Shown: positions 39,389 to 56,694 of the stretch, in pieces
Position numbering within the stretch: the stretch's first letter is position 1
Layout: the number at the start of each line of letters is the position of its first letter
Source: Anaerolineaceae bacterium
GTDB lineage: Bacteria > Chloroflexota > Anaerolineae > Anaerolineales > UBA11657
Reading direction: 5' to 3'
Assembly (NCBI GenBank): GCA_003569365.1
Contig: BGOS01000006.1
Location: 124,001-188,000 of the forward strand
Length of the DNA: 64,000 bases
Position numbers and translations under genes: made by a program
Notes under the pieces: model-generated
What the model was told of the DNA's origin: nothing
The model's input: only the letters and a program-made list of their open reading frames with translations
Database searches by the model: none

Positions 39389-40203
39389 GCCGCCGCAATC
39401 GGCGGCTGCTTCATCGTGGGCGGTATTGGCACGCCCAGCCGCGCGCACACCGTTGGCGCAATCTGCAGCTGGCTGACGGTGGCGCCGGTATTGCCACGGC
39501 CGGCTGCCTGCGGCGCAACTACATACAGCGGCACTTCGCGCATATCCGGCCGCGTGCCGCCATGCAGGCGATCGGGGCCGATGCCATGATCCCCGGTCAC
39601 CAGCAGCGTGTAGCCAAGCGCTTCCCACTCCGGCCACGCGTATGCCAGCATGCTGTCTTGCGCGGTTATTTGACGCCGGTACTCATAAGAGTCGCCGCCA
39701 TGGCGCTCACCCAGATAGTCCGCAGCCATGGGATGAATAAGCAAGTAGTCCGGCGCAAACTTGCGCACCAGAGCTGCGCCCGCCGTGAACACCTCAAAGT
39801 CCGGGTAGTCATCAGTGTTATAAAAGCGGCCGTGCTGAATCGGCCGTGCCGTGTCATCCACTTCGCGGTCATCAACCATATCGAAGGGCGCGCGGTTGTA
39901 CAGCTCGGAGAACCAGCAGTAGGCACTGGCAGCGGTGACGCGCCCGGCTGCTTGCGCCGCCGAAAAAATGCTGGGCATGCGCGACAGCCGCGCCACATGG
40001 TTGCTGGTAATGCCATGCTCCATCGCCGAAACGCCGGTGTGCACAGCTTCGTAGCACGGCCGCGACATCGTGGGCAGCTCGCCGCGCACTTTGTAGCGCG
40101 TGGCGCGGCGCGTCTCCACAAGATGCTCCAGAAAGCTCATGTGCTCGGCAGCGCGGTCGTCGCGCAGTGCATCGCTCAAAACCAGAATTACTTTGGCCAT
40201 CAC
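39385..40203 (-). CDS. Alkaline-phosphatase-superfamily phosphodiesterase (NPP/AP type)
   Basis: 272 residues of the type I phosphodiesterase fold. SDALRDD at the N-terminus has a metal Asp; LPTMSRPCYEAVHTG near residue 50 carries the nucleophile (Ser in place of the more common Thr) and HTGVSAMEHG follows; TGDHGIGPDR near the C-terminus supplies the last metal residues. No signal peptide. It could act on nucleotide phosphodiesters, glycerophosphodiesters or phosphonoacetate-like compounds. Coupled to GDPD by ATGA and 14 bases after the amidotransferase gene. Start GTG 40203 or ATG 40200. Confidence 0.78.
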   Translation of the reverse strand: MMAKVILVLSDALRDDRAAEHMSFLEHLVETRRATRYKVRGELPTMSRPCYEAVHTGVSAMEHGITSNHVARLSRMPSIFSAAQAAGRVTAASAYCWFSELYNRAPFDMVDDREVDDTARPIQHGRFYNTDDYPDFEVFTAGAALVRKFAPDYLLIHPMAADYLGERHGGDSYEYRRQITAQDSMLAYAWPEWEALGYTLLVTGDHGIGPDRLHGGTRPDMREVPLYVVAPQAAGRGNTGATVSQLQIAPTVCARLGVPIPPTMKQPPIAAA

Positions 40204-40217
40204 AAAACTTTATGCGC

Positions 40218-41081
40218 CTAATGCGTGCGCGCCGGAATCACCAGCCGCTGCAGCCAGTTGAACACTTCGTTTTGGCGGATGTCGTCGTGCAGCAAGTCCG
40301 GGCCCACGTTTAGCTCGGCGCGCAATGCGCCGTTGCCGGGTTCATCCGCCAGCGCCAGCATGCGCAGCACCTGCTGTTCCACTTCCGCCTCAGATTTGAA
40401 GAATCCCTCTTTGGTGAGCGGCGCCTTGCGCGCCACTAGCAGCCGCGCCATGGCTGCCAGCGTAAACTCCGGATGGTATTGTGGCGCCCAAAACACGCCC
40501 GCTGCATGCCGCACCTCCAGCGCCTGCACCGGCGTATGCTCGTTCTGTGCCAGCAGCGTTGCGCCGGGCGGCAGCTCGGAAACCTCATCCAGATGCATGA
40601 TGAAAGCATCAAAGCGCGCGGGCTTGCCGATGTACATTGGATGTGCGCGGCCGGCTGCGGTCAACTGGATGTCACGCGCAATGCACCACTCGCGCCCGTT
40701 GGGGTTCTTGCGAACCGCGCCACCCGCTGCGAGCGCAGCCATTTGCACGCCCCAGCAGCTGCCAAACTGTGGCACGCCCGCCGCGTAAATAGAGCGGCAC
40801 AGCTCCACCTGGCGCGTAACCTCAGGCACATCATGGTAAATCGTCAGGTTCGAGCCGGTCCAGATGAAGCCATCGTAGGAGCTGAGGCCGGCACCAGCCG
40901 GCAAGCCCACATCCAAGTCCGCCACGTAAAGCACATCAAATTTTCCATGCGGCAGCATAATGCGCAAAAAATCCAGATAGAGATCATCTGCCTGCCGCAC
41001 ATTTGATTCATCCAGCACGGCGCGATTCTTCTTTGGATAGCCATTGATAATACACAGCGCAAGCGGGGCGTCAAGTTTCAT
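40218..41081 (-). CDS. Class I glutamine amidotransferase
   Basis: 287 residues. The nucleophile elbow is in FGSCWGVQM near residue 105 and the His-Glu pair in APQYHPEF near 205; the catalytic triad is thus complete. The fold resembles the glutaminase part of GMP synthase or gamma-glutamyl hydrolases. The C-terminal ~80 residues, rich in charged residues, are unusual for a stand-alone glutaminase. The ATG at 41081 is followed by LALCIINGYP; the upstream extension is not protein-like. It heads an operon with the phosphodiesterase and GDPD. Substrate unknown. Confidence 0.8.
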   Translation of the reverse strand: MKLDAPLALCIINGYPKKNRAVLDESNVRQADDLYLDFLRIMLPHGKFDVLYVADLDVGLPAGAGLSSYDGFIWTGSNLTIYHDVPEVTRQVELCRSIYAAGVPQFGSCWGVQMAALAAGGAVRKNPNGREWCIARDIQLTAAGRAHPMYIGKPARFDAFIMHLDEVSELPPGATLLAQNEHTPVQALEVRHAAGVFWAPQYHPEFTLAAMARLLVARKAPLTKEGFFKSEAEVEQQVLRMLALADEPGNGALRAELNVGPDLLHDDIRQNEVFNWLQRLVIPARTH

Positions 41082-41164
41082 GTTGTTTGCATCCGGCGGA
41101 TTTGGAAAATTGTACCAGTAGCCAGTATTGCGCATGCCAGTTGTGCTATCCTAGCGCACAAAAT

Positions 41165-42415
41165 ATGGACAAACAAGTTGAAGCGTTGGTGGTGGGTGGC
41201 GGGGCCGTGGGAGTGTGCACGGCTTTTTTTCTTGCACAGCAAGGCATGCAGGTAACCCTGCTGGAGAAAGATGCGCTGGCCTCGGGCAGCTCGCACGGCA
41301 ATGCGGGCCTTGTGGCCTACAACCACGCCATTCCACTCGCCGGGCCGGGCGTTCTTGGCCAGGGCCTGCGCTGGCTGGCAGATCCCGAAAGCCCGTTCTA
41401 CATCAAGCCGCGCCCCAGCGTGGAACTGGCGCGCTGGCTGCTGCAGTTTCAGGCGTGCTGCAATGAGCGTGCTGTGCGCGCCATTATTCCTCCGCTGCTG
41501 GAGATCGGCCGCGCAAGCCACGCACTTTACACAGAGCTGATTGAAGAATATAAACTGGATTGCAACTACGAACACAAAGGCCGCCTGTATCTTTACCGAA
41601 CCGCTGCGATGCTGCGCAAAGGCGAGCACAAGGCGCAGCTGCTGGCTGAGCACGGCGTGCCAAGCGAGCTGCTGGATGCCAGCGCAGCGCGGCGCATGGA
41701 ACCCAATTTGCAGCCGGACGTAATCGGCGGCGTTTACTACCCGCTATACGCGCACATCACGCCCGGAAAATTTGTGCACGCGCTGGCAGAAGTGGCGGGC
41801 GGGCTCGGTGTGAACATCCACACCCAAACGGAAGTATTGGCGCTGGAAAGCAACGCCGGCCGCATCACCCGCGTTGTAACCACCCGCGGAGACTTCCTGC
41901 CGCAGCATGTGGTGATGGCCACCGGCGCGTGGTCGCCAGAATGGTCGCGCCAGCTAAAGCTGCGCTTGCCCATCCAGCCCGCAAAAGGCTATAGCTTTAC
42001 GGTGCGCCGGCCAGCCGCCTGCCCCAACATGTCACTCTCGCTGGAAGAGGCGCAGATTGCAGTTACGCCGATGGGCTCCGAGATGCGCTTTAGCAGCACG
42101 CTTGAGCTGGGCGGCATGGACTTCAGCATCAATCAACGCCGCACGGATGCGATGCGGCGCGCCCTCTCCCGCTATTTGAAAGGCATGGAAAATTTGGAGG
42201 TGCTTGAACTCTGGCGCGGCTTGCGGCCATTAACGCCGGACAGCCTGCCGATCATCGGACGCAGTCCGCAGCACTCGAATGTAGTGCTGGCCACCGGGCA
42301 TGGCATGCTGGGCATCACGCATGCACCCATGACGGGGCGGCTGGCTGCCCAGCTGGTGGCAGGCAGCCAACCGGCAATGAACCTGCGCCCCTTTCAAGTC
42401 GAGCGCTTCCAATAA
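41165..42415 (+). CDS. FAD-dependent D-amino-acid/glycine oxidase-like oxidoreductase (DadA family)
   Basis: 416 residues. FAD-binding VVGGGAVGVCTAFFLAQQG opens the protein (in short: VGGGAVGV), followed by EKDALASGSSHGNAGLV, where the flavin loop of DadA lies. The C-terminus has the DadA signature RPLTPDSLPIIGR and GHGMLGITHAPMTG. It would oxidatively deaminate a D-amino acid, glycine, sarcosine or related amine. An extended -10 (TGC-TATCCT, 41144-41152) lies 12 bases before the ATG. Divergent from the amidotransferase operon and close to the DMT permease. Related FAD enzymes recur in phosphonate-catabolism clusters. Confidence 0.85.
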   Translation: MDKQVEALVVGGGAVGVCTAFFLAQQGMQVTLLEKDALASGSSHGNAGLVAYNHAIPLAGPGVLGQGLRWLADPESPFYIKPRPSVELARWLLQFQACCNERAVRAIIPPLLEIGRASHALYTELIEEYKLDCNYEHKGRLYLYRTAAMLRKGEHKAQLLAEHGVPSELLDASAARRMEPNLQPDVIGGVYYPLYAHITPGKFVHALAEVAGGLGVNIHTQTEVLALESNAGRITRVVTTRGDFLPQHVVMATGAWSPEWSRQLKLRLPIQPAKGYSFTVRRPAACPNMSLSLEEAQIAVTPMGSEMRFSSTLELGGMDFSINQRRTDAMRRALSRYLKGMENLEVLELWRGLRPLTPDSLPIIGRSPQHSNVVLATGHGMLGITHAPMTGRLAAQLVAGSQPAMNLRPFQVERFQ

Positions 42416-42500: not shown

Positions 42501-43373
42501 ATGCCACTTTTTCCATTTTCATTGGTAATGCTTTCCGCTGTGATGCACGCCGGCTGGAACCTGCAAGTACGCCAGCGCCAGGACCCGCAGGAATTTGTGC
42601 GGATGCTGGTGCTGGTTATTGCGTTTGGCATTGGCCCGGCGCTGGCTGCAGAGCTGCTGCTGCTTCCAGTGCTGGCAGCCACTTGGCAGTGGATACTGCT
42701 GGCCGGCATTTGCCAGGGGCTTTACTGCACTGGTTTGTCTTTCGGCTACCGCCATGGCGACTTCACGGTGGTGTACCCGCTCGCGCGGGCATTGCCCGCA
42801 CTGCTGCTCGCTGGCTTCGACGTGTGGGCTGGCCATGCGCCGTCCGCACTGGGCTGGCTGGGGCTGCTGCTGGTTGCGCTGGGCTGCGCTTTGATCCCGC
42901 TTGAATCACCGCGCAATATCTCCGCAAAGACCTACTTCAACACAAGCACCGGTTGGACCCTGTTGATTGCGCTGGCAACTGTGGGCTACACGCTGGCTGA
43001 CACCCGCGCGGCGAAGCAGCTGCCCTCACTTGCCAGCCTGCTGCAGTATCACGTGTTTGTACAGGTACTGGATGTTTTTTTCTTCGCGCTGTTTCTGAAG
43101 CTGCTGCGCGAGCCCGTCAAATTGAGCTTTCCGCGCGGCACTTGGTTTTCCACGCTGCTTGCCAGCGCTGCGATGTTTGGCGGCTACTCACTGGTGCTGT
43201 GGGTGTACCAGTTCAGCGCCCAGGCAAGCTACGTTGTGGCGCTGCGCCAAGTGAGCATTGTGCTGGGCGTGGCGGGTGCAGCGTGGCTGTTTCGCGAACC
43301 CGCAGCCCGCTGGCGGATTGCCATGGCCGCCATGATTGTTGCCGGGGTGCTGTGCATCAAGTTTGCCGGGTAA
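42501..43373 (+). CDS. EamA/DMT-family membrane transporter
   Basis: 290 residues with about ten hydrophobic segments, arranged as two EamA repeats. The first ends in GYRHGDFTVVYPLARALPALL (in part: HGDFTVVYPLAR), the second in QASYVVALRQVS and AWLFREPAARWR. Such proteins export amino acids, nucleotides or amines. 85 bases downstream of the FAD oxidoreductase, likely co-transcribed. Convergent with the ABC ATPase, with two bases between the stops. Cargo unknown. Confidence 0.8.
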   Translation: MPLFPFSLVMLSAVMHAGWNLQVRQRQDPQEFVRMLVLVIAFGIGPALAAELLLLPVLAATWQWILLAGICQGLYCTGLSFGYRHGDFTVVYPLARALPALLLAGFDVWAGHAPSALGWLGLLLVALGCALIPLESPRNISAKTYFNTSTGWTLLIALATVGYTLADTRAAKQLPSLASLLQYHVFVQVLDVFFFALFLKLLREPVKLSFPRGTWFSTLLASAAMFGGYSLVLWVYQFSAQASYVVALRQVSIVLGVAGAAWLFREPAARWRIAMAAMIVAGVLCIKFAG

Positions 43374-43375
43374 CG

Positions 43376-44431
43376 CTAATCCATCAGCCAGCAGGCGTGC
43401 GCCGGAAAGCTGAGCACCACCTGCGCATCCACGGCGGGCAGCACCAGCTTGCGCTCGTTGAACATGTCCACAGACAACTCCACCGCTCCCACGCGCACGC
43501 GCACCCGCACTACGTTCCCCAAAAAGTTGACGCTTAGCACGCGCCCGCTTAACCGGTTGGCACCCGCCCCGCCAAGCACCAGTTCTTCCGGCCGGATTGC
43601 AAGGCGCGCACTGCCAGCTTGTTTGTTCGGCGCGGGCTGGCTGCTTGCCAGAGCCGTGCCTTCAAACGTGCAGGCGCCCGTGGCTGCATCGGTAACCTGC
43701 ACCGGCAGCAAATTCAAGTGCCCCACAAAGGACGCGGTGAAAGCCGTGCGTGGATAGTTGTAGATTTCAAATGGCGTGCCCACCTGCTCAATGCGGCCCA
43801 GATTCATCACCACAATCCGATCAGAAAGTGAAAGCGCCTCTTCCTGGTCATGCGTGACATATATGGTGGTCAGCTTTAGTTCCTGTTGAATGCGCCGGAT
43901 CTCCGAGCGCAGCTCAATGCGGATCTTGGCATCCAGCGCCGAAAGCGGCTCGTCCAGCAGCAGTAACTGGGGCTGGACTGCAAGCGCACGCGCCAGCGCC
44001 ACGCGCTGCTGCTGGCCGCCCGATAGTTGGTGCGGATAGCGGCGCCCGTAGTCCGGGAGCCGGATCAACTCCAGCATCTCTGCCACGCGCGCTTGCATCA
44101 GCGCTGCTGGCTGCCCCGCCACGCGCAGCCCAAAGCCAACGTTCTCTGCAACCGTCATGTTTGGAAACAAAGCGTAAGCCTGAAACACCATGCCCACGTT
44201 GCGGCGATTCGCAGGAACGGAACTTACCTCCGCACCATTGATGTGCACGCTACCCGCATTCGCCTGCTCGAAACCCGCAACCACGCGCAGCGTTGTGGTC
44301 TTGCCACATCCACTCGGACCCAGAAAGGAAATAAATTCCCCGCGCTCGACGCTCAGACTGAAGTCGTCAACCGCCGCACCGGCACCTTGCCCAAAGTGTT
44401 TTGTAATGCCGCTAATCTCAAGAAATGCCAT
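43376..44431 (-). CDS. ABC transporter ATP-binding protein (PotA/FbpC/PhnT-like)
   Basis: 351-residue ATPase of a substrate-binding-protein-dependent importer. Walker A is GPSGCGKTTTL near residue 38, the ABC signature LSGGQQQRVALARAL near 138, Walker B LLLLDEPLSALD near 155 and the switch His in VTHDQEEAL near 200. A TOBE domain occupies the last ~110 residues. Its position after two permease genes and a solute-binding protein completes an importer whose proteins belong to the iron/polyamine/2-aminoethylphosphonate group. Confidence 0.92.
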   Translation of the reverse strand: MAFLEISGITKHFGQGAGAAVDDFSLSVERGEFISFLGPSGCGKTTTLRVVAGFEQANAGSVHINGAEVSSVPANRRNVGMVFQAYALFPNMTVAENVGFGLRVAGQPAALMQARVAEMLELIRLPDYGRRYPHQLSGGQQQRVALARALAVQPQLLLLDEPLSALDAKIRIELRSEIRRIQQELKLTTIYVTHDQEEALSLSDRIVVMNLGRIEQVGTPFEIYNYPRTAFTASFVGHLNLLPVQVTDAATGACTFEGTALASSQPAPNKQAGSARLAIRPEELVLGGAGANRLSGRVLSVNFLGNVVRVRVRVGAVELSVDMFNERKLVLPAVDAQVVLSFPAHACWLMD

Positions 44432-44446
44432 GAGTACTCCGCCGGG

Positions 44447-45241
44447 CTAGCGGCCAATGGGCTGCAAGCGCACATCGCCCCGGCTCACAAGTTGAATGAT
44501 TCCCAAACAGATCCAAGTGAGACCAAAACTTAGGATCCCAAGCGCGGCCGGCTCGTAAGCCTTGCCGCCCCCAACAACCACCATGTACGGCCCCAGCGCC
44601 GGGCGCACCAAAAAATCCGCAAGAATTAGTTCGCCCACAACCGTGGCAAATGTAATCAGCGAGCCACTCAGAATTGCAACCCGCAAGTTAGGCAAAATAA
44701 CACTCAGGAGCACTCGCAGCCAGCCGGCCCCCAAGCTTTGTGCCGCCTCTGTCAGCGTGCGCACATCAATCGCGCGCATGCCCACATCCACCGCCCGGAA
44801 CATAAACGGCATCGACAAAATAACATAACCCGCCGTGATTAAAATATCGGTGGTGAACTCCGTTTGCGTCATGCGAAAGGGCGGCCGGCTAAAGGTGCGA
44901 ATCAGGCCAAACACAAGCACAATCACCGGAATGATGAAGGGCAGCAGGGTCAGAAGTTCAACCACCGGCCGCAGGCGCGGCAATTTTAGGTGGATCCAGT
45001 ATGTTGTGGGCACAAAAAGCATGATGCTCACAATCACAGTAATCACGCCCATGGTGGCCGAGTAACGGAAGCTCTGCAGGAACTTGGGATCGGCAAAAAC
45101 TTTTTGGTACGCCAGAAAGGTGATCGCACCGCGCTTCATGCGCAGCGAAAAATCAAAAGTACCCCAAAGCGGCACGAAAAAATAGAGCGTGGCAACCGTC
45201 ACCCACAGCCATGTCCACGGGTTGAATCTGCTTTTCGTCAT
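44447..45241 (-). CDS. ABC transporter permease (second subunit)
   Basis: 264 residues, about six transmembrane segments, with the EAA-loop in TEAAQSLGAGWLRVLLSVILP near residue 180. The ATG at 45241 overlaps the first permease stop as ATGA. Belongs to the PotC-like permease type. Pairs with the permease upstream. Confidence 0.88.
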   Translation of the reverse strand: MTKSRFNPWTWLWVTVATLYFFVPLWGTFDFSLRMKRGAITFLAYQKVFADPKFLQSFRYSATMGVITVIVSIMLFVPTTYWIHLKLPRLRPVVELLTLLPFIIPVIVLVFGLIRTFSRPPFRMTQTEFTTDILITAGYVILSMPFMFRAVDVGMRAIDVRTLTEAAQSLGAGWLRVLLSVILPNLRVAILSGSLITFATVVGELILADFLVRPALGPYMVVVGGGKAYEPAALGILSFGLTWICLGIIQLVSRGDVRLQPIGR

Positions 45242-46173
45242 CGCCTGAGCCAGCGCGAGGTGCGCCGATCGAGCACCGTATACAACGCAATGCAAACAGC
45301 CATCACCACCACCATGCCGAACGCCAATGCATAGCCAAGGTTGGTGTCGCCCAGCACATCACCGCGAATTTGCTGCCCGATGACAATGGTGACAAGCAAA
45401 ATGCTGCCGCCGGTAAGCGCCTGCGCAGTGGCATAGGCACCAAAAGCGCTGCCAAAGAGCAGCAAGGTGGCGCCCAAAATCGAAGGCAGCAAAACCGGAA
45501 AGCCAATATGCCACCAATACTGCCACGCGCTGGCACCCAGATTTTCCGCAGCTTCGCGCCATTCGCGCTTCAAACCTTCAATCGCCGGTGTAATGACAAG
45601 CACCATCAATGGAAATTGAAAATAGGTGTAGGTGACTGCAAGCCCGACAGTACTGTAGAGACTAAAGCCGGCTTCGTACGGATCCAACGGGCACACCTTG
45701 CTTGCATCCGCAGCGCTATAACAAATGCTCTTCAGGATGGCGGTAACAAACCCGGTGCGGCCCATCGTGGCAATAAATGCAAAGGCCAGCGGCACGCCGC
45801 CAAAATTGGCGGCCAAACCGGAAAAAGTAAGCAGCATGCTGCGCACCCAGCGCGGCGCCGCGCCCATGGTGATTGCATATGCCACAAAGAAACCCAGCAC
45901 CCCGCCACTTAGTGAGGTAATCAAGCTCACTTCAAGGCTGGTTCTATAAGCCTTGAGGATGTAAGGGGAGAACAGGCCTTGGATGTTTACAAGCGTGAAG
46001 TTGCCCTTTGCATCCTGGAACGCACCCGCGAATAAGTTTGTGGCCGGAAATATCAGGAACGCTATGATGAAGACGAAAAACGGCAGTACGCCAAGGTAAG
46101 TCCACACCGCCGCAAGCTTGAAGCCAGCCCGCGGCTGTAACCTTGCAAGGCGCGTGTCAGCAATTTCAGCCAT
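45238..46173 (-). CDS. ABC transporter permease (first subunit)
   Basis: 311 residues from the ATG at 46173 (an earlier start at 46230 would add 19 residues). About six transmembrane segments; the EAA-loop is EWREAAENLGASAWQYWW near residue 210. PotB-like. Separated from the solute-binding protein gene by a hairpin and ~180 bases, but in the same direction, and coupled to the second permease. Confidence 0.88.
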   Translation of the reverse strand: MAEIADTRLARLQPRAGFKLAAVWTYLGVLPFFVFIIAFLIFPATNLFAGAFQDAKGNFTLVNIQGLFSPYILKAYRTSLEVSLITSLSGGVLGFFVAYAITMGAAPRWVRSMLLTFSGLAANFGGVPLAFAFIATMGRTGFVTAILKSICYSAADASKVCPLDPYEAGFSLYSTVGLAVTYTYFQFPLMVLVITPAIEGLKREWREAAENLGASAWQYWWHIGFPVLLPSILGATLLLFGSAFGAYATAQALTGGSILLVTIVIGQQIRGDVLGDTNLGYALAFGMVVVMAVCIALYTVLDRRTSRWLRR

Positions 46174-46298
46174 GCGGTAATAGGTGCAAAACGGCACCGG
46201 TCGAAACACCTGATGCAACAGGGGCGGCATTCATCCAAATCAAATTATAACTGGCGGCTGGTAGGCATTGCACGCTTGAGTCACACCACCGGGAAAAC

Positions 46299-46330
46299 AA
46301 ACGGCCCGGCAAAAGCTGCCGGGCCGTGTT
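46299..46330 (-). terminator. Hairpin between solute-binding protein and permease genes
   Basis: ACGGCCCGGC and GCCGGGCCGT make a perfect ten-base-pair stem with a seven-base loop, followed on the minus strand by TTGTTTTC. It is 24 bases after the solute-binding protein stop. Such hairpins usually limit read-through so the binding protein is made in excess over the permease. Confidence 0.6.
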
Positions 46331-46353
46331 CCAACCAATTTCAAAGAACGGGC

Positions 46354-47598
46354 TTACGGGGCCTTTTTGATGTCAAGACCAACTACGGTGTCCCATTTCT
46401 CCTTGATGTTTGCACGCGCAGCTTTAAGTTGAGGTCCCTTGGGGACCACTGAAGTCTCGATGATTTTCGGATCAGGCAATTTTGCCTTGATGTCATCTGG
46501 GACAACATTGCGAGAGATCATATCTGCAAGGCGGGATGGCGTGCAGTAACCTTTCATCCAAGTCAGCTGGCCGACGTCGGAATAGAGGTACTCTTGCCAC
46601 AAGCGCGCCGCTGCCGGATGCGGAGCATAGGCACTAATCGCCTGCAAATAGTACCCACCCCAGTTCACGGATGAAGGATAAACAATCTCAAGCGGAGGAT
46701 TGCCTGCAAACGTATCAGCATTGGCAAGCGCCAGATAGTTCCACTGGAAGGTAATTGGTGTTTCGCCCTTCGCAATCGTTCCGCTGCCAGCAATCAACGG
46801 CAATAAATTACCGGAGGCGTTTAGCTTCTTGAAGAACTCAAGGCCGGCCGTGGTGTCATCCAGCGTACCACCGCTGGCCATGCCGGCGGCAAAGACGCTC
46901 TGGGCTGCCTGGTTTGAAGCGCGCGGATCCCCTGCCAGCGCAACCTGCCCTTTGTACTTTGGATCAAGCAGATCAGCCCAGTCCTTGGGCACATCTTTCA
47001 CCACGTCGGTGTTCACTTCAAAGACCATCACACCGTTGTAATCCACAACGTAGTAGCCATCCGGGTCCTTGTCGCCAACAATTGTGTCCCATGTGGCAAC
47101 CTTATAAGGGGCCAGAAGGCCTTCTTCTTTGGAAGTTGGACCATACGCAGGACCGACGTCAATTACGTCCGGCGCCTGCGGGCCTTTGTTTTCTTTGTTG
47201 TCTTTGATGGCCTGAATCTCGTCAGCGGAACCACCATCCGGGTTGAGTGAATTGACCTTGATACCGTACTTGGCAGAGAAGGTATCAATCATCTCACCGT
47301 AGTTGCACCAATCAACAGGCAGCGTGATCACGTTCAGCGCACCCTCAACCTGCGCCGCAGCCGTCAGGTCATCCATGTTACCGGCTGCTGTGGCAACACT
47401 CCAATCCACCGCCGCCGCCGGCACAAACGGTACATCCGTCGCCGGCACTGCGGGCACTTTGGTTGGCTCTGGAGCGGGAGCAGCTGCAACCGGCTCTGGC
47501 GCGGGAGCCGGCGCTGCACAAGCACCCAGCACCAATGCGCTTACAAGAAAAATTACACCAGCAATCTGCATGTTTTTGTGTTTAGTTTGCATTTTCAC
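46354..47598 (-). CDS. ABC transporter solute-binding lipoprotein
   Basis: 414 residues. The N-terminus is a lipoprotein signal peptide ending in LGAC (Cys about residue 27), followed by an Ala/Pro/Glu-rich linker of ~35 residues. The mature part has the family 1 extracellular binding-protein pattern seen in iron, polyamine and 2-aminoethylphosphonate receptors (VITLPVDWCNYGEMI, WADLLDPKYKGQVALAGDPR in parts). Adjacent phnX and phnW suggest a phosphonate ligand, though polyamine or an amine is also possible. Confidence 0.88.
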   Translation of the reverse strand: MKMQTKHKNMQIAGVIFLVSALVLGACAAPAPAPEPVAAAPAPEPTKVPAVPATDVPFVPAAAVDWSVATAAGNMDDLTAAAQVEGALNVITLPVDWCNYGEMIDTFSAKYGIKVNSLNPDGGSADEIQAIKDNKENKGPQAPDVIDVGPAYGPTSKEEGLLAPYKVATWDTIVGDKDPDGYYVVDYNGVMVFEVNTDVVKDVPKDWADLLDPKYKGQVALAGDPRASNQAAQSVFAAGMASGGTLDDTTAGLEFFKKLNASGNLLPLIAGSGTIAKGETPITFQWNYLALANADTFAGNPPLEIVYPSSVNWGGYYLQAISAYAPHPAAARLWQEYLYSDVGQLTWMKGYCTPSRLADMISRNVVPDDIKAKLPDPKIIETSVVPKGPQLKAARANIKEKWDTVVGLDIKKAP

Positions 47599-47986: not shown

Positions 47987-48826
47987 CTACGGCCGCTCGC
48001 CACGCCGCAGCCGCGCATTGATGTCATCCAGCACTGCGGGTACATCCCAAATGCCGTCCACAACATAGTGGGCGCCACACTGCGCCATGCGGCCGTAAGC
48101 CCGGTCCAGCTTGCGCTTGAGTTCATCAGCCGGCGCATTTCTAACTTCCGCGTGATTCAGGCCGACCTCATTGCCGGTTAGCGCGAGTCCGATCGTCCAC
48201 ATATTGCAATTGAGGCCCTCTTCAATTCCGGGCAGTGTGTCATCAACCTTAACCATCGCCTCCATCGGGAAGATGCCGAGGTTCATCGCGTTTTGCACGC
48301 ACATCCATGGTTCCGGGCGGCCCGCGGGCACATCGGTCGCGCAAACCGTCGAGTCGGGTGCGTAGTTGCGCTTCTTGGCCTCATGCAGCAACAGCTTCAT
48401 CATCTCACCGGTGTAGCCGGTGGTGGAGCCGATCTTAAGTCCGCGCTTGCGAAAATCCGCAACGGCCTCAAGCGTGCCCGGTATCAGGTCCGCATAATCC
48501 GCCAGGCATGCCAGCTGCAGCGGAATAAAATCCTGAAACATGCCCTCAATGTCATCTTCGTTGGGCTGCCGGCCAAGGGCTGCCTGCCAGCGCTGGTTCA
48601 CTTCCGGCAGCTGTGAGATCTTGCGAATATGAACTTTCTTGTGCGCGCCCATTGGCACACGCGCCTCGTCCACTGCAATCGGCACACCCTTGCGCCGGTA
48701 CACTTCCACGAAGACGGTGGCGGGGGCATAACAGCCATAGTCCATGGTTGTGCCAGCCCAGTCCAGCAGGATGCCTTTTAGCGGCCCGCGGTACTGGCGT
48801 TGAAAATAGAAATCCATTGGGTCCAC
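47987..48826 (-). CDS. phnX: Phosphonoacetaldehyde hydrolase
   Basis: HAD enzyme that cleaves the C-P bond of phosphonoacetaldehyde to acetaldehyde and phosphate. 279 residues. The nucleophile Asp is in LLDWAGTTMDYG (about residue 22), and PMGAHKKVHIR near 60 has the Lys that forms the Schiff base with substrate, the hallmark of PhnX. TGYTGEMM and VKVDDTLPGIEEG complete the HAD motifs. Shares direction and likely transcript with phnW, 77 bases upstream. Confidence 0.95.
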   Translation of the reverse strand: MDPMDFYFQRQYRGPLKGILLDWAGTTMDYGCYAPATVFVEVYRRKGVPIAVDEARVPMGAHKKVHIRKISQLPEVNQRWQAALGRQPNEDDIEGMFQDFIPLQLACLADYADLIPGTLEAVADFRKRGLKIGSTTGYTGEMMKLLLHEAKKRNYAPDSTVCATDVPAGRPEPWMCVQNAMNLGIFPMEAMVKVDDTLPGIEEGLNCNMWTIGLALTGNEVGLNHAEVRNAPADELKRKLDRAYGRMAQCGAHYVVDGIWDVPAVLDDINARLRRGERP

Positions 48827-48903: not shown

Positions 48904-50034
48904 CTAAGCTTCAAAGTTCATCTCAAGTTTAACCGCGCGGATGGCTGCCAGCAGCGCAGCAAAGTCGGCCGGGAACAAGCGCCCAATGCAGCCGATGCGA
49001 AAGCAGTCTGCATTGCTGACCTTGCCCGGATAAATCACATAGCCCTTGTCGCTCAAGCGCGAATAGAACTCCTCAAACTCAAACCGCGGATGGTCAGGAA
49101 ATCTGAACGACACGATGATATGCCCCTGATCCTGCGGCTGCAGGTATTCCTTGAAGCCGAGGCTGCGCATGCCCGCGACGAGCGTCTGATAGTTTTTGGA
49201 GTAGCGCTGCGCGCGCGCAATCACGCCGCCTTCAGCCACCAGCTCGTCCAGCGCCTGATGGAACGCAAGCAGCGCGTGCGTGGGCGGTGTAAAGCGAAAC
49301 TGGCCGTTGGCTTCCAGCGCCTTCCACTGCCCAAACACATCGAGGCTCAAGCTGCGCGCCCGGCCCTCGCATTCCAGAAGCGCAGCGCGACTGGCGAGTA
49401 TCAGGCCAAAACCCGGTACACCCTCAATACATTTGTTTGCCGAAGATACAAGGAAATCAATTCCTGTCTTGTCCGGCTCAAGTGGCATGCCGCCAAAGCT
49501 GCTCATGGCATCCACAATAAAACGGCGCTTGTGGCGCTTCACCACAGCGCCAATCTCATCGATGGGGTTGATCATGCCGGTGGTAGTCTCAGAATGAACC
49601 AGTGCCACGTGCGTCAGCGCCGGATCCTGCGCCAGCGCCGCTTCCACATCGGCAGCCGTTGGCTTGGCGTCTTCTGGGTAGGTCAATATGGTTGCATCAA
49701 TCTTGTGCACCTTGGCAATTTGAATAATGCGCTGCCCGTAAGCGCCATTGCTGATGGCCAGGAGTTTGCCTTGGGCGGAAACGGCTGAAGAGATAACCGC
49801 CTCGACGCTGTATGTGCCGCTGCCCTGCATAATCACACACTCATAATCCGGCGCTGCCACGCCGGCAAGTGCCAGCAGTCGCTGGCGCACATCACGGACG
49901 AGGTTGACAAAGGCGGAGTCGCGCGAGCCAAGGTCACGCAGCATGGCCTGCTTTACGCTGCGGCTGGTGGTAAGCGGGCCGGGCGTGAACAACGGTTTGT
50001 CGTTGGCAGAGGCAATGTAGTTACTATGTTCCAT
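48904..50034 (-). CDS. phnW: 2-aminoethylphosphonate--pyruvate transaminase
   Basis: PLP enzyme transferring the amine of 2-aminoethylphosphonate to pyruvate, giving phosphonoacetaldehyde and alanine. 376 residues. The N-terminal FTPGPLTTSRSVKQAM and GSGTYSVEA near 70 are family-typical. The PLP Lys is in SSANKCIEGVPGF near residue 195. VHSETTTGMINP contributes to the cofactor site. With phnX it forms the complete phosphonatase pathway. Confidence 0.95.
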   Translation of the reverse strand: MEHSNYIASANDKPLFTPGPLTTSRSVKQAMLRDLGSRDSAFVNLVRDVRQRLLALAGVAAPDYECVIMQGSGTYSVEAVISSAVSAQGKLLAISNGAYGQRIIQIAKVHKIDATILTYPEDAKPTAADVEAALAQDPALTHVALVHSETTTGMINPIDEIGAVVKRHKRRFIVDAMSSFGGMPLEPDKTGIDFLVSSANKCIEGVPGFGLILASRAALLECEGRARSLSLDVFGQWKALEANGQFRFTPPTHALLAFHQALDELVAEGGVIARAQRYSKNYQTLVAGMRSLGFKEYLQPQDQGHIIVSFRFPDHPRFEFEEFYSRLSDKGYVIYPGKVSNADCFRIGCIGRLFPADFAALLAAIRAVKLEMNFEA

Positions 50035-50212: not shown

Positions 50213-50839
50213 TTAGCTGCGCTTCACCACCACATCCGCAATTGCGTTGGCCGCCTGGTCGCCGCGGTCCGCCGCGTTCGAAAGGTGGCGGTAGATCTCA
50301 CGCAGCTTGAGCATGCTCACAACGTGGTCAATGTCACGCGGGTTGGCAAACAAGTCTGCGACCGCTTCGCGGTACACGCGCTCCACCCGGTTTTCCAGCG
50401 CCTTGGCGCGCATGGCGTGCTCGTTGGCCACGCCGGGCCGTTCCTGCAGCAGCTTTACGCCGCGATGCACTTCTGCGCCCGCCTCCACCAGCAGCGAGCA
50501 CATGCGCTCCAAAAAAGCATTCGGTGCCACACCCAGCAGCACCATCTCGTCCACGGTCGTGTCGGCGTAATCCACCATGTCATCGATGGCACGCGAGAGC
50601 GCAAACACATCCTCGCGGTCAAAGGGTGTGACAAAGTTTCGATTGAGCTCATCAATCAGAATCCGGCGCACTTCATCGGCCTGCTCTTCCACATTATGCA
50701 GCTCCGCGGCCACGGCGGTCAGGGGCTCGCGCATGTACTGCTGCAGCAGCAGCAGCCCGCGCTGCGTCAAGTCCGCCTGGCGCACAAGCAGTTCCACAAT
50801 TTGCTCCGGCTCCCGGCGCCGCCAAAACATCCACTTCAT
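50213..50839 (-). CDS. DUF47/PhoU-like phosphate transport accessory protein
   Basis: 208 residues, almost entirely helical, with the DUF47 pattern: FVTPFDREDVFALSRAIDDMVDYAD near residue 70 (in parts, PFDREDVFAL and DDMVDYAD) contains the metal-binding acidic motif, and HVVSMLKLREIYRHLSNAADR follows near the end. Homologues modulate Pit transporters. The gene starts four bases before the pit stop (ATGA-type overlap), the usual arrangement of this pair. Confidence 0.9.
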   Translation of the reverse strand: MKWMFWRRREPEQIVELLVRQADLTQRGLLLLQQYMREPLTAVAAELHNVEEQADEVRRILIDELNRNFVTPFDREDVFALSRAIDDMVDYADTTVDEMVLLGVAPNAFLERMCSLLVEAGAEVHRGVKLLQERPGVANEHAMRAKALENRVERVYREAVADLFANPRDIDHVVSMLKLREIYRHLSNAADRGDQAANAIADVVVKRS

Positions 50840-51819
50840 TGCGTTACCCCCGCCTGCCGCAACAGCAGGCTAAAAATCCCCGCCAGCAATGCCGACAGCG
50901 GAATCGTAAGCAGCCATGTCCACAGGATCTCCAATGCAACACCCCAGCGCACGCGGCGCACATTTTGGGCGGCACCCACGCCCATGATCGCGGCGCCGGT
51001 AATATGCGTTGTGCTTACCGGGACGCCGGTGAGCGCAGCGCCAAGAATCACCACGGCCGCTGTCGCCTGGCTCGCAAAGGCGTGCACCGGCCGCACAGTG
51101 TACATCCCCGAGCCCAGCGTGCGCATCAGCCGTCCGCCGCCAGTTAGCATGCCGGCAGCAGTTGCCACCGCACTGGCAGCCACCACCCAAACCGGCACCA
51201 CAAATCCCTGCACCAGCCCGCTCACGGAAAGGCCCAATGTGATAATGCCCATGCTGTTTTGCGCACTATTGCTGCCATGCGTTAGTGCCAGCCCCATAAA
51301 TGTAAAGCGCTGCGCACGCTTGAACCAAAGGTTGATCGATGGACTTGCTGCCTGTGCCAGCTCCAGCACCAGCTTCATAAACAGGTAGCCGAAAAGCATA
51401 CCGAGCAGCGGTGAAAGCAGCAGGCCTGCGTACACGGTGCGCAGCCCGGCCCATTGCAAGCTGCCCAAACCTGAGCTTGCGGCGGCCGACCCGAGGATGG
51501 CGCCCACCAAGGCATGCGCCCGCGAGGAGGGCATGCCCGTGTACCAGGTAATCAGCGCCCAGGTTGTGGCGCCCCAAATTGCGGCCAAAAAAACCGGCAG
51601 TGTTGCGGCACCGGGCAGCACCAACCCGCGGCCAACGGTGCGCGCAATTGCAGAACCAAATAGAAAAGGGCCGATGAGCATGGCGGCCGCAGTAAGCAGC
51701 AACGCCGGCCGCGCTGCCAGCGCGCGTGATGCAATCAGCGTCGACAGTAGTTTGGCGCTGTCGTGAAAGCCGTTCAGAAAGTCGAACAGCAGCACACTGC
51801 CGATCAGCGCAAACAGCAT
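50836..51819 (-). CDS. pit: Inorganic phosphate transporter, PiT family
   Basis: 327 residues, about ten membrane segments. The N-terminal PiT signature appears as FDFLNGFHDSAKLLSTLIAS and the second repeat as HGSNSAQNSMGI near residue 180. PiT proteins are low-affinity symporters of metal phosphate and can work in either direction. In this neighbourhood the enzyme PhnX releases phosphate, so uptake or efflux of excess phosphate are both plausible. Confidence 0.92.
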   Translation of the reverse strand: MLFALIGSVLLFDFLNGFHDSAKLLSTLIASRALAARPALLLTAAAMLIGPFLFGSAIARTVGRGLVLPGAATLPVFLAAIWGATTWALITWYTGMPSSRAHALVGAILGSAAASSGLGSLQWAGLRTVYAGLLLSPLLGMLFGYLFMKLVLELAQAASPSINLWFKRAQRFTFMGLALTHGSNSAQNSMGIITLGLSVSGLVQGFVVPVWVVAASAVATAAGMLTGGGRLMRTLGSGMYTVRPVHAFASQATAAVVILGAALTGVPVSTTHITGAAIMGVGAAQNVRRVRWGVALEILWTWLLTIPLSALLAGIFSLLLRQAGVTQ

Positions 51820-51876: not shown

Positions 51877-52629
51877 CTACTGCGACTGCAAGCCACGCAG
51901 CACGGCGGGCAGTTGCGCGAATTCACTGCACACTGCATCAGCCGCGGTGTGCGCGCTGTCGCGGTCAATGGCACCGGTGAACAATATGGCGCGCATGCCC
52001 AGGGCGCGCGGGCCGGCCACATCATTGCTCTCACGGTCACCCACGTGCGCAATTTCCGCCAGCGGCAGTCCCAGTGCAGCGGCACATTGCGTGAACACCT
52101 GCGGCGCCGGTTTGGATGCGCCCACCTCGTCAGAAAAAATCAGGCAGGCAAAATGCTGCAGCACGCCAGCGCGGCGCAGCAGTTCGCGCAGGCCGCGCCC
52201 GGGCGTATGAATTGTGTCGGAGATGATGCCAAGCTTGTATTTGCCTGCCAGCGCCGCCAGCGTGGTCGCCATGTCTGGTACCCAGTCCGGCGCCACTTCA
52301 ACCTCCATATCTTCCACGGCGCGCACAAGCTCCGCAAACCCGGGCGTTGGCGCAACGCCCAAGTGCTCGTACGCAAACTGCATGCGCCGCGCCACGGTTG
52401 GTGTATTGTGCTCCACCTTCCAGCAATGGCGGAAGCACTCATTGGCATGGTCAAACGCAGCGCCCAGCTGCGCGTTGCTTAGCTGCGGATGGTGCTGCTG
52501 CACTTCTGCGGTCAGCAGCTGCCGGCGGGTGTCCGCCTTTGAGGGCAGGCCCAGCGCAGCCCGCTTGGGCTCATCGGAGTCATCGAAGACCAGCGTATCC
52601 CAAAAATCAAAAGTTACAGCGCGGATCAT
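51877..52629 (-). CDS. HAD-superfamily hydrolase
   Basis: 250 residues from the ATG at 52629. HAD motif I is DFWDTLVFDD at residues 7-16, with the nucleophile and acid Asp separated by Trp as in DxWDT. Motif II is IISDTIHT near 132, motif III has the Lys in GASKPAPQVF near 170 and motif IV is VGDRESNDVAG near 195. A helical cap (residues 20-100) places it in the C1 group. Phosphoglycolate-like or nucleotide phosphatase; substrate unknown. Confidence 0.85.
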   Translation of the reverse strand: MIRAVTFDFWDTLVFDDSDEPKRAALGLPSKADTRRQLLTAEVQQHHPQLSNAQLGAAFDHANECFRHCWKVEHNTPTVARRMQFAYEHLGVAPTPGFAELVRAVEDMEVEVAPDWVPDMATTLAALAGKYKLGIISDTIHTPGRGLRELLRRAGVLQHFACLIFSDEVGASKPAPQVFTQCAAALGLPLAEIAHVGDRESNDVAGPRALGMRAILFTGAIDRDSAHTAADAVCSEFAQLPAVLRGLQSQ

Positions 52630-52717
52630 TGTTGCCAGTGCCTTATGGTGAGTTATGACAGCGCACTTATAGCACGAAGACCATCCACGCTCGCGCACAA
52701 CAATTGAGCAGCAGACT

Positions 52718-55149
52718 TCACAGCTTGATGCGCGTGCCAGCCGGATCCCAGAGCGGTTCAGCCGCCACCAGTGCAGCGCTCAGTTCGCCGTACAACTCAA
52801 CATCCACGGCGGTGCCGGGCCGGGCCAGGTCCACCGGCAGATATGCGTAGGCAATACTTTTTTCAACAGAGTAGCCGTAGCCACCGGAGGTAACCCATCC
52901 AGCCACTTCGCCGTTGTGCCGCACCGGCTCTTTGCCGATACATACTTGCGCGGGATCGGCCAGCGTTAAGCAGCACAGCTTGCGCTGAATGCCAGCCTGT
53001 TTCTGGCGCACCAAGGCAGCGCGCCCAATAAACGCCGGCTTGGAAAGTTTGACCGCAAACCCCAGCCCTGCTTCAAAAGGCGTGTAATCCGGCCCGAGCT
53101 CGGCACTCCAGTAGCGATAGCCCTTCTCGAGACGCAGCGTGTCGATGGCCCGGTATCCGCCAGCGTGCAAGCCATGCGCCTGGCCCGCTTCCCACAATGT
53201 CTCCCACAAGCGCGCGCCGTACTCCATGGGGCAGTGCAGCTCCCAGCCCAGCTCGCCCACATAGGTGACGCGCACAGCCAGCACCGGCACGGCCCCCACT
53301 GCAATGCGCTGCGCAGTCAAGTACGGGAACGCCGCACTCGAAAGATCCGCGCGTGTAACCGCCTGCAGAATGTTGCGCGCGTGCGGCCCCCACATGCCCA
53401 GCACGCATGTTGCCGAAGTCACATCTTCCAGAATGGGCGCTGCGTGCGCGGGCATGTTGAGCTGCAGCCAGACCAGTCGTGCTGCCCGAATGCCGTGCCC
53501 GTAACAATCGAAAAGCGGTCCGCGCCAATACGCGTAACCGTAAAGTCACACTCGATGCCGCCACGCGGGTTGAGCGCCTGCGTATACACCACCGTGCCAA
53601 CCGGCCGGTCCACATCGTTGGCGCATACGTGCTGCAGAAAAGGCAGCGCGCCAGCACCGCGCACTTCCAGTTTGCTGAAGGATGTTTCATCGAAGATGGC
53701 AGCGCTGTTGCGCGCCGCCAGATGCTCCACCCCAATGGCAGCCGACCAGTTGTGGGCAGCCCAGCCCGCGGGCTGATGCCCATGCTGTGCCGCTGCGGCA
53801 TGCGGCTCAAACCAGTTGGCGCGCTCCCAGCCAAACTTTTCACCAAATGCCGCACCCAATGCCTGCAGCTGCTGGTATGCCGGGGAGAGGCGCAGGGCAC
53901 GCACGCTCTCGCGCTCCTCATTTGGATAGTGAATATCGTAATACTTGGAGTAGGTCTCGACCGTGCGCGCGCGGGTGTACTCCACGCTGTTGTAGTTGGA
54001 GCCAAAGCGGCGCACATCGAGGCGCCACACATCCCATTCCGGATGGCCGTGCACAATCCACTCGGCCATTACCTTGCCAATGCCACCGGCCCCGGCCAGC
54101 CCATGCGCACAGAATGCAGCCGCCACCCAAAACCCGGGCACCGCCGTTGGGCCAAGCAGGTACTCGCCATCCGGCGTAAATGCCTCCGGGCCGTTTAGCA
54201 GTGTGTGCACCTCGGCCGTCTCCAGCAGCGGCACACGGCGGATCAAATTTTCCATCAACGGCGTGAAGCGCTCCCAGTCCGGCGGCAGCAGCTTGAAGCT
54301 AAAGTCCAATGGCACTCCATCAAGTCCCCAGGGTGCTGGCTCGCGTTCATAGCCGCCCGCCACCAACCCGCCAACCTCTTCGCGATAGTAAATCAAATTG
54401 TCTGGATCGCGCAGGGCCACCAACTCGCGCGTTACGCCCGCCACTGGCTTTGTGATGAGATACAGATGCGCCATCGGGATGATGGGCAAATAGACACCGG
54501 CCAACTGCGCGATCTGCCGCGCCCACATGCCGCCGGCATTCACCACGTGCTCTGCAGCAATGAAGCCCTGCGTGGTTTCCACGCCGCACACCCGGCCATC
54601 CCGCAGGCTGATGCCGGTAACAATGCTTTGCGTGCAAATTTGCACGCCGCCCGCGCGCGCGCCGGCAGCCAGGGCATTCGTCAGCCCGGTCGGGTCAATC
54701 ATTCCGTCAGTGGGCGTATACACCGCGCCCACCACATCCTGCAAAGACATCAGCGGAAAGAATGCCAGTGCCGCTTGCGGCGAGATAAGTTGGAAGTCCA
54801 AGCCAAAGGAGCGCGCCAAAGAAACCTGGCGCTTAAGTTCCACAAGGCGCTCTGGCGATGATGCCAGCCGTACGCCACCGGTCATGCGCCAGCCAGTATC
54901 CTGTCCAGTCTCAGCTTTTAAACGGCCGTAGAGATCCGTGCTGTACTGCATCATGCGCGTGAGATTTACATCAGAGCGCAGCTGGCCAACCAGCCCGGCG
55001 GAATGCCAGGTGCTGCCGCTGGTCAGCTCGTGGCGCTCCAGCAGCACAACGTCACTCCAGCCGAGCTTTGCCAAGTGGTACGCAATGGAGCATCCGCCTA
55101 CTCCGCCGCCAATGATGACAACGCGCGCCTGCGTGGGGAACGGGCTCAT
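52718..55149 (-). CDS. Dimethylglycine/sarcosine dehydrogenase-like FAD-GcvT fusion, frameshifted
   Basis: The N-terminal FAD module (from ATG 55149) has IIGGGVGGCSIAYHL and GSTWHSAGL, whose His (about 49) is where dimethylglycine and sarcosine dehydrogenases attach FAD covalently. A GcvT-like folate domain follows from about residue 430. The first frame ends in unrelated residues after FGQHD (stop at 53419); the second resumes with LVWLQLNMPAHAAPILEDV and runs to 52718. One missing base near 53475 explains this; the repaired protein would have ~810 residues. It would demethylate an N-methyl amine, passing the carbon to tetrahydrofolate. Coupled to the kinase gene, four bases away. Confidence 0.82.
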
Positions 55150-55153
55150 GTGC

Positions 55154-56104
55154 TCACACCTGCGCCAGCCACGCAGGCAATGCGGGATCCTGCAGGCGCA
55201 GCTCTACGCGCCCAAAGTATGTGCTCGCGTACTCGCGAAAATCAAAGTCCAACCCGGAGATCGCGGACTGCAGCACGCCCCACATTGCTTCGCGGAAATC
55301 CGAAACAATCTTCATCAAGTTGAGGCGTGCGAGATCTGCCGTATCAGTGGCGCCATACGCTGCCAGCAACTGCAAATCGTGGGCGGGCAGCAGCTCATGA
55401 TGCGCCGAAAAATTTCCGAGATCGAAAAATGGATCGCCCATACCGGCGTACTCCCAATCCAGCACAAACAAACGCTCTTGTGCATCAACCAGAAAGTTGC
55501 CGTTGAGCAGATCATTGTGGCACAAGCGCTCAACAAATGCGCGCCGCGCGAGAGCATGCTCCAGCACATCCAGCCGCGCCCGCAGAGTGTCAAAGTTGAC
55601 GGGAAACTCCGCCCCACCTGCGCGCGCCAACCCGGTGTAGGTGCGCACCACCTCAAAACCAGAAAAACGCGCACCCAGTGCGGGCAAGGCATGGACGCGG
55701 CGCAGCAGTGCGCCAATCGTATCCAGCCAGAGCGCGGAACGCAATTCTTCCGGCAGCGGCATGCGCCCGGCAATAAAGTCAGTCACCAGATAGCCCTCGG
55801 GCTCGATCATGTGCACCACGCCGGGCGCAATACCAGCAGCAGCCGCACTGCAGCTGGCTGCGTACTCCACACGCCGGTCTATGCCGAGCGTATCGGTGCG
55901 CTCGCCGGCAATCCGCAGTACAAAATCAGCCGCAGCCGTGGTGATCCGGTAGTTGGTGTTGGTGATGCCGCCGCGCAGGGCTGTGATCTGCTGCGCTTGG
56001 ATGCCGGCAAACTGCGGCACGCGCGCGAACAACGCTGCAGCAACCGCACTTCCATGGCCTGCGTCATACAAATCAGAAACCGGTACGGCGGCATCTCCAG
56101 CCAT
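55154..56104 (-). CDS. Choline/ethanolamine-kinase-like phosphotransferase (APH/LicA fold)
   Basis: 316 residues from the ATG at 56104. The kinase-like fold is evident from LRGGITNTNYRI near residue 40, the catalytic loop LCHNDLLNGNF near 195 with the base Asp, and VLDWEYAGMGDPFFDLGN near 215 with the metal Asp. The pattern matches LicA-type choline kinases and homologues acting on ethanolamine and N-methyl derivatives. It is immediately upstream of the FAD-GcvT gene and paralogous to the kinase encoded divergently at 56695. Confidence 0.87.
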   Translation of the reverse strand: MAGDAAVPVSDLYDAGHGSAVAAALFARVPQFAGIQAQQITALRGGITNTNYRITTAAADFVLRIAGERTDTLGIDRRVEYAASCSAAAAGIAPGVVHMIEPEGYLVTDFIAGRMPLPEELRSALWLDTIGALLRRVHALPALGARFSGFEVVRTYTGLARAGGAEFPVNFDTLRARLDVLEHALARRAFVERLCHNDLLNGNFLVDAQERLFVLDWEYAGMGDPFFDLGNFSAHHELLPAHDLQLLAAYGATDTADLARLNLMKIVSDFREAMWGVLQSAISGLDFDFREYASTYFGRVELRLQDPALPAWLAQV

Positions 56105-56694
56105 TATTCCTGCATACCTTGACCAATAGACCCGATATAAAAAGACAGCATAGACCCATTTGCCGATCCGCAACTTCCATCACAATGAGCCGAAACCATT
56201 ACCGTAATCTGCCTCATACACAGCCACGCAAAGAAAGTTTAGCCATCAATACCCTTCGCGGAGGACCAATACCCGCTACTTGCCAAGCGTCTGCTACGCG
56301 CCAAATATACGCCAACAAACTATAATTCCAGAATATCTAGAACAGTCAGGCTGGTAGTAATCAAATGCACCAAAGTAGTTTTCTTAACAACCTTTACGTC
56401 GGTTAAGACTAAAAGTCATGTCCACGACCAAAAAATTGTAACATGTGCGAATGATGGCTATTGGCCACGTAGCCTAGTAGCGATCAACGGTTTCCTCTAA
56501 ATCCCACATTCGCAAAGAGCAGCCAGCTTTCTAAAGGTATCGATGTTCAATTTGCATTTCGGGAGATACCGCCCGAGTAGCCGCAAAGTTTCATTGCTTT
56601 GACTGCTGCGGGGCGCAACCAACGGCCTGGTTGCGCCCCGCAGCGCATCGGCCCGGCACGCCGCGCAATTATTTAACATCCTTCCCCAACTATC
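56105..56694. other. Large AT-richer gap between divergent kinases
   Basis: Nearly 600 bases without a convincing gene, visibly more AT-rich than its surroundings. Short frames exist (for example 56497-56742 on the minus strand) but have no family character. It holds a 16-base-pair perfect hairpin near the right end and must contain the promoters of both kinases. No terminal repeats or transposase remains were recognised. Confidence 0.5.
56606..56643. repeat. Perfect 16-base-pair inverted repeat
   Basis: Arms CTGCGGGGCGCAACCA (56606-56621) and its exact reverse complement (56628-56643) flank a six-base spacer. No T-run on either side, so not a standard terminator. It lies 51 bases before the ATG of the plus-strand kinase. 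Confidence 0.8.

Follow-up and report, generated by a model that had tools for sequence, protein, structure and literature searches.

A FAD-GcvT protein between a kinase-family gene and a putative phosphatase gene near an Anaerolineae phosphonatase cluster: a candidate N-demethylase of N-methylated 2-aminoethyl phosphates

A gene for a FAD-GcvT protein was analysed in a 64,000-nt stretch of DNA (contig BGOS01000006.1, positions 124,001–188,000; hereafter the window) from the 2.63-Mb, 30-contig genome of an Anaerolineaceae bacterium. It was found that the gene encodes a predicted covalent-FAD, folate-dependent N-demethylating amine dehydrogenase, which would transfer methyl groups to tetrahydrofolate (THF). 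The best reading of its function, which we put forward tentatively from sequence and gene context, is that the protein may N-demethylate N-methylated 2-aminoethyl phosphates, working between a kinase and a HAD phosphatase, and possibly also takes N-methyl-2-aminoethylphosphonate (N-methyl-AEP). N-methyl-phosphoethanolamine was favoured over N-methyl-AEP as the substrate of the window gene; the phosphate was ranked above the phosphonate because of the immediate neighbours of the gene and its nearest relatives.

The two open reading frames listed first in Table 1 were found to make up one FAD-GcvT gene, interrupted at about 53,470 by a frameshift of one base. The 5' part contained the covalent-FAD motif GSTWHSAGL and matched PF01266 (DAO, 244.6 bits, 2.8e-72), PF16350 (FAO_M, 7.3e-19) and positions 2–118 of PF01571 (GCV_T), and the 3' part matched positions 130–255 of PF01571 as well as PF08669 (GCV_T_C). 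The architecture of dimethylglycine dehydrogenase (DMGDH) and sarcosine dehydrogenase (SarDH), which the initial annotation had proposed for 52718–55149 from this motif and a GcvT-like domain, was confirmed by these matches, albeit in a frame-shifted gene. An unbroken FAD-GcvT protein of 810 aa (P0001) was encoded in one open frame (L011/L043) in a congener (G002, CANNEJ010000237.1), with 97% identity to the window protein across the first 572 residues. The pN/pS values between the two genes were 0.03 for the FAD part and 0.11 for the GcvT part, the changes in both halves being mostly synonymous, as expected from purifying selection on the gene. Because the congener copy is intact and pN/pS is low in both halves, the frameshift is either recent or an assembly error. 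A dead gene, considered as another meaning of the frameshift, was disfavoured on the same grounds.

Table 1. Genes of the window around the FAD-GcvT gene (window coordinates)
Feature	Position	Strand	Remarks
FAD-GcvT N-demethylase gene (predicted), 5' part: FAD (DAO), FAO_M, start of GcvT	53419..55149	-	576 aa; PF01266, PF16350, PF01571
FAD-GcvT N-demethylase gene (predicted), 3' part: remaining GcvT folate domain and C-terminal barrel	52718..53455	-	245 aa; PF01571, PF08669
APH1, choline/ethanolamine-kinase-family phosphotransferase	55154..56173	-	4 bp upstream of demethylase; PF01636 and PF01633 above cut-off
HAD-family hydrolase, inferred phosphatase	51877..52698	-	19 bp downstream of demethylase; PF00702 above cut-off, TIGR02253 below
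PiT-type phosphate transporter	50836..51819	-	PF01384 9e-69
DUF47/PhoU_div protein, PiT partner	50213..50839	-	PF01865 64.9 bits, above cut-off
phnW, 2-aminoethylphosphonate transaminase	48904..50034	-	TIGR02326 489.7 bits (cut-off 400.8)
phnX, phosphonoacetaldehyde hydrolase	47987..48826	-	TIGR01422 316.3 bits (cut-off 220)
PhnSTUV-like ABC transporter	43376..47598	-	ATPase 43376-44431, permeases 44447-45295 and 45238-46230, binding protein 46354-47598
Phosphonate-utilisation-associated membrane protein, phn_DUF6-like	42501..43373	+	TIGR03340 145.6 bits, below cut-off 288
Second FAD amine/amino-acid oxidoreductase, single-domain	41087..42415	+	PF01266 2.2e-77; PRK00711 285 bits, below cut-off
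Class I glutamine-amidotransferase-like protein	40218..41135	-	NF006562 105 bits, below cut-off
Type I phosphodiesterase-family protein	39385..40203	-	PF01663 1.5e-13; 58% homologue adjoins phnX in L162
Glycerophosphodiester phosphodiesterase family protein	38582..39637	-	PF03009 2.9e-39
SDR dehydrogenase	37840..38553	-	PRK06057 283 bits, below cut-off; 76-77% identity to SDRs near FAD-GcvT in L065, L092, L099

The congener protein P0001 was aligned over its full length (~800 residues) with mammalian DMGDH (4pab, 1.9e-176; also 5l46) and Arthrobacter dimethylglycine oxidase (DMGO; 1pj5, 6e-149). Mammalian SarDH is the third known member of this superfamily. Its characteristic parts, namely a DAO domain with the FAD-His motif, the FAO_M linker, GcvT and the C-terminal barrel, were all found, in one chain in the congener and in two frames in the window. 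The FAD-linking His is His49 of P0001 and was conserved. Asp552 in the folate site of DMGO, which we take to be a functionally important site and at which the sequence of 3gsi differs from that of 1pj5, corresponds to Asp535 of P0001; it was kept in all rows tested except human DMGDH and L003, where it is Glu. The catalytic dyad His225/Tyr259 of DMGO, the role of which has been described (PMC5082570), corresponds to His228/Tyr254 and was kept in all rows tested. N-demethylation onto THF, the chemistry suggested by the initial annotation, is well supported by inference because of the full-length alignment with DMGDH and DMGO and the conservation of the FAD His, the dyad and Asp552. Judging from sequence similarity, the fold of the window protein is already fixed; it does not fix the substrate, because gabT-gabD or a carnitine dehydrogenase accompanies some of the other members. 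The FAD-linking His was found to be replaced in L175 (4685–7126, TSGTTWAAAGL) and L066 (6320–8854, TSGSTCQAAGL).

The product of the gene next upstream, APH1, belongs by sequence match to the choline/ethanolamine kinase family (PF01633, 69.4 bits against a cut-off of 29), and its best solved relatives were a choline/ethanolamine kinase family protein (3dxq, 7e-33) and a choline kinase (4r77, 3e-19). A guanitoxin-type kinase name was rejected for APH1, the match to the NCBIfam GntI model being below cut-off. A HAD hydrolase likewise neighbours FAD-GcvT in L043, L065, L099 and L114. The position of the FAD-GcvT gene upstream of phnW and phnX on the same strand, as first noted, was verified; both genes scored above the curated cut-offs, which identifies a phosphonatase cluster. 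Between the demethylase gene and phnW lie three genes, the HAD hydrolase and the PiT-DUF47 pair; neither these nor APH1 figured in the initial annotation. The PhnSTUV-like transporter matched TIGR03265 (413 bits) and PhnS models (62–65 bits), both below cut-off; its homologues accompany clade orthologues and are contiguous with phnWX in L162. The best NCBIfam match of the second FAD oxidoreductase was D-amino acid dehydrogenase, below cut-off; the gene is kept in three congeners. In L065, L099 and L051, an orthologue of the glutamine-amidotransferase-like protein (57–60% identity) is encoded beside FAD-GcvT or beside the kinase that goes with it. The order of the phn block was conserved in three congeners. 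In G001 the genes keep their order from SDR to PiT, and in G002 they do so from the amidotransferase to PiT. The two contigs end at PiT, and in G002 the HAD-FAD-GcvT pair lies on a separate short contig. From seven other genomes of the family, phnW and a window-type SDR were missing.

The near orthologues of the window gene (80 named loci, 59–100% identity, mostly Anaerolineae) were usually linked to a kinase. In 52 of them an APH/choline-kinase-family gene was located on the same strand no more than 1.5 kb away; among the 38 loci with 9-kb flanks, 30 had such a gene within 10 kb. Within 10 kb, phnW was clearly present in only one (L092), with a 40% match in L121. Other recurrent neighbours were a second FAD-GcvT, DeoR, a class II aldolase, a HisC-like aminotransferase, another HAD, MttB and EtfAB. 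The SDR (76–77% identity), the amidotransferase, the HAD, the kinase and the transporter of the window are all shared by L065 and L099, which additionally carry a GCS2-type ligase and an ALDH that is BADH-like; in the window genome there was no close homologue of the L065 GCS2-type ligase, and the counterparts of this ALDH were only 40% identical. In L068 (12427–16427) and similar Anaerolineales loci, a run of kinase, class II aldolase, HisC-like aminotransferase and HAD was observed after FAD-GcvT; this run could convert phosphoethanolamine to phosphoglycolaldehyde and sugar phosphates.

In a rapidly built LG+G4 tree with 82 proteins, from which human sarcosine dehydrogenase was left out, the window gene fell in a clade rich in Chloroflexota, its sister being L062. 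This closest relative is kinase-linked, and no phn genes were found on its 8-kb contig. The rhizobial subclade described below, the G180/G256 pair and the phn-neighbouring members of the window clade sat in separate parts of the tree, so phn linkage arose more than once; a single phn-specific clade was rejected on this basis. The window genome has three further full-length members (L003–L005), of which L003 grouped with human DMGDH, both being long-branched, and the window gene fell outside this pair.

About 396 Anaerolineae genomes were surveyed, with FAD-GcvT counted at E ≤ 1e-220 and phnW and phnX at cut-off. FAD-GcvT was found in 45 genomes, phnW in 18 and phnX in 24. Six of the 18 genomes with phnW also had FAD-GcvT, where 2.0 were expected (hypergeometric P = 0.01). 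The two genes were no more than 20 kb apart on the same contig in every one of these six. The chance of such proximity was about 5% per genome, which is a crude figure that assumes six family copies per 4.5-Mb genome, the genomes not being independent and G180 and G256 being congeneric. In these two genomes FAD-GcvT lies immediately before phnW; in G253 it was on the same contig as phnW, phnX and PbfA (701.7 bits, cut-off 525). Several other genes of phn or related loci were observed. An MtmB-family methyltransferase (PF05369) without internal stops directly follows phnX in L160 (3270–6939, G048:C11), together with a corrinoid protein (TIGR02370 above cut-off) and GntR, and another without internal stops, cut by the contig end, is divergent from phnW-phnX in L165 (6303–6764, G286:C143). 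Both are candidates for a corrinoid-dependent demethylation of AEP in its N-methylated or trimethylated form; choline and tetramethylammonium are substrates of a non-pyrrolysine MtmB homologue (PMC13044021). A run of GntR, MttB, corrinoid protein, FAD-GcvT and an MtaA-like protein in L159 (3296–8805, G253:C132) may cover all the demethylation steps of a quaternary amine. Directly downstream of phnW in L157 (12573–13943) and L164 (6447–7757), proteins were found that resemble each other, belong to an unknown family and likely have a membrane segment.

Among alphaproteobacterial relatives, a rhizobial subclade (Sinorhizobium, Ensifer, Phyllobacterium, Aminobacter) was near phnW-phnA-phnY in all seven loci read, which were on plasmids or chromids; AEP transporter genes were close in most, and a DeoR-FAD-GcvT unit was usual. 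A sister subclade was kinase-linked, as in Shinella (choline/ethanolamine kinase-FAD), Nitratireductor (kinase-FAD-EutH) and Labrenzia. The Ruegeria locus contained a choline-type ABC transporter, the kinase, FAD-GcvT and an inositol-monophosphatase-family protein. The Salipiger locus had the same set plus EtfBA, FolD and PurU, as well as a glutamine-synthetase-family ligase, an ALDH, an Fe-ADH and an N-formylglutamate amidohydrolase-like protein. FolD and PurU at this locus fit methylene-THF as the product, and EtfBA fits ETF as the electron acceptor. EtfAB adjoins seven of the 80 near orthologues and also relatives in Salipiger, Sphingobium and Agrobacterium; no EtfAB was found at the window locus.

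In the proposed mechanism, the flavin domain would oxidize the N-methyl group of the substrate amine, and the GcvT domain would pass the one-carbon unit to THF. The products would be methylene-THF and an amine with fewer methyl groups, in the end a primary one; the electrons probably go to ETF. The phosphate of the substrate would take the place of the carboxylate of sarcosine or dimethylglycine. In the kinase context, the kinase would convert a methylated ethanolamine to its phosphate, the FAD-GcvT protein would demethylate the presumed N-methyl- or N,N-dimethyl-phosphoethanolamine to phosphoethanolamine with transfer of the methyls to THF, and the HAD protein, as a putative phosphatase, would release ethanolamine, the likely order being kinase, demethylase, phosphatase. 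In the main Anaerolineales clusters, a HisC-like aminotransferase might, speculatively, replace the phosphatase step. In the phn context, the isosteric N-methyl-AEP would be demethylated to AEP, which PhnW would convert to phosphonoacetaldehyde, with PhnX downstream. Both contexts are most simply accommodated by a demethylase of N-methylated 2-aminoethyl phosph(on)ates, and the phn-linked relatives fit the same scaffold. More guardedly, we suggest that a branch of the superfamily may have shifted from carboxylate to phosphate or phosphonate substrates, acting on kinase-made N-methyl-phosphoethanolamines and, in the phn-linked members (rhizobial phnWAY, Anaerolineae phnWX), converting N-methyl-AEP to AEP and methylene-THF. 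Several points speak against the best reading. The kinase could have some other compound as its substrate or could follow the demethylase in the pathway; the window genome lacks close counterparts of the L065 ligase and ALDH; Arg58 of the window family, a possible anion-binding residue, is found in members with other contexts too; the range of neighbours among other members leaves the substrate open to choice; and the window copy is frame-shifted. Literature searches found nothing relevant on an N-demethylation pathway for dimethylethanolamine or phosphoethanolamine in bacteria. Neither FAD-GcvT in phosphonate clusters nor a kinase-demethylase-phosphatase module was found described in the literature searched, outside which subscription papers mostly lie.

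The initial annotation had proposed the window protein as a candidate N-methyl-AEP demethylase yielding AEP for PhnW; spelled out, this reading would take M1/M2-AEP to AEP and methylene-THF, with PhnW and then PhnX following. It is plausible and partly supported, but as the main role of the window gene we consider it rather unlikely. The FAD-GcvT gene is on the same strand as phnWX and the PhnSTUV-like transporter, in a setting where the phn block keeps its order in three congeners, and the proximity to phnW in all six Anaerolineae genomes with both genes, the direct adjacency in G180 and G256, the occurrence with PbfA, phnW and phnX in G253, and the rhizobial loci with phnWAY and AEP transporter genes all point the same way. 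The clade is not one that is never near phn genes, as had been envisaged as a refutation, yet phnW is clearly near only the one near orthologue out of 80 and the kinase is the usual partner, also of the nearest relative. Moreover, the phn-linked members are scattered in the tree, three genes intervene before phnW in the window, and the second FAD oxidoreductase could itself be the N-methyl-AEP oxidase.

An ordinary dimethylglycine or sarcosine dehydrogenase that came to lie near phn genes by chance is improbable. DMGDH and DMGO are the closest solved relatives, all catalytic residues tested are kept, and MttB-family genes near some orthologues are compatible with betaine use; however, a kinase like the conserved neighbour plays no part in the use of dimethylglycine, and the genome holds three other full-length members, among which it is L003, rather than the window gene, that pairs with human DMGDH on long branches. 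Still less probable is a demethylase of another N-methyl amine, such as an N-methyl amino acid or N-methyl-GABA. Members in Aureimonas and Sphingobium are followed by gabT, gabD, EtfBA, FolD or PurU, and carnitine 3-dehydrogenase is close to the member of Rhizobium CC-CFT758, but no such genes are beside the window gene, and its kinase, HAD and phn neighbours do not fit such a substrate. In L206 (8067–14029) and L215 (6914–15380), FAD-GcvT was observed near gabT-gabD and EtfBA, with PurU and FolD in Sphingobium; these two members are candidate N-methyl-GABA demethylases.

If the demethylation of N-methylated 2-aminoethyl phosph(on)ates is true, N-methylated aminophosphonates and phospholipid head-group amines would yield their methyl as a folate-bound one-carbon unit with no loss of methylamine, phosphonate use would be tied to one-carbon metabolism, and many genes annotated merely as 'FAD-dependent oxidoreductase' would gain a substrate. 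Sinorhizobium meliloti, in which such a FAD-GcvT gene adjoins phnWAY, offers a direct test system.

Compared with known systems, the window family shares with DMGDH and DMGO the covalent FAD-GcvT architecture over the whole length and the residues equivalent to DMGO His225, Tyr259 and Asp552. It differs from them in a conserved GLVGQLR after the FAD His, Arg58 of which is His in human DMGDH and Asn in DMGO, and the neighbours of the window gene are a kinase, a phosphatase and phn genes, not betaine genes. Arg58 was considered as a phosphate-specific mark and rejected, being found also in members with other contexts. APH1 resembles the choline/ethanolamine kinases (3dxq; 4r77, LicA type) at the family level only.

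PbfB, PbfC and PbfD are likewise PF01266 FAD enzymes in phnW clusters, and N-methyl-AEP, on which PbfC and PbfD have been shown to act, is the substrate proposed also for the phn-linked FAD-GcvT proteins. They are, however, grouped as separate oxidoreductase families, with GcvT or THF not mentioned (PMC10590968). Membership was judged by a match to the TIGR03364 and TIGR03329 models and the absence of a GcvT domain; the window protein scored 52 bits with TIGR03364 (cut-off 285) and has a GcvT domain, and was not assigned to PbfB/C/D. From N-methyl-AEP, methylamine and phosphonoacetaldehyde are the products of PbfC and PbfD, with no formaldehyde detected (PMC10590968), whereas AEP and a folate-bound one-carbon unit are proposed for FAD-GcvT. 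We therefore agree with the initial annotation that the fused folate-coupled form would be distinct from the FAD enzymes described in phosphonate clusters; with such a route PhnW would still be of use, and the methyl carbon would not be lost. The gamma-glutamyl-ethanolamine pathway of Phaeobacter starts from ethanolamine, and the operon described contains neither a kinase nor an N-demethylase (PMC10132767). Its ligase, ADH, ALDH and amidohydrolase types are found beside the kinase-linked FAD-GcvT of Salipiger, and the Chloroflexota loci L065 and L099 hold, by analogy, a parallel set whose families are unrelated to these, namely a GCS2-type ligase, an SDR, a BADH-like ALDH and an amidotransferase.
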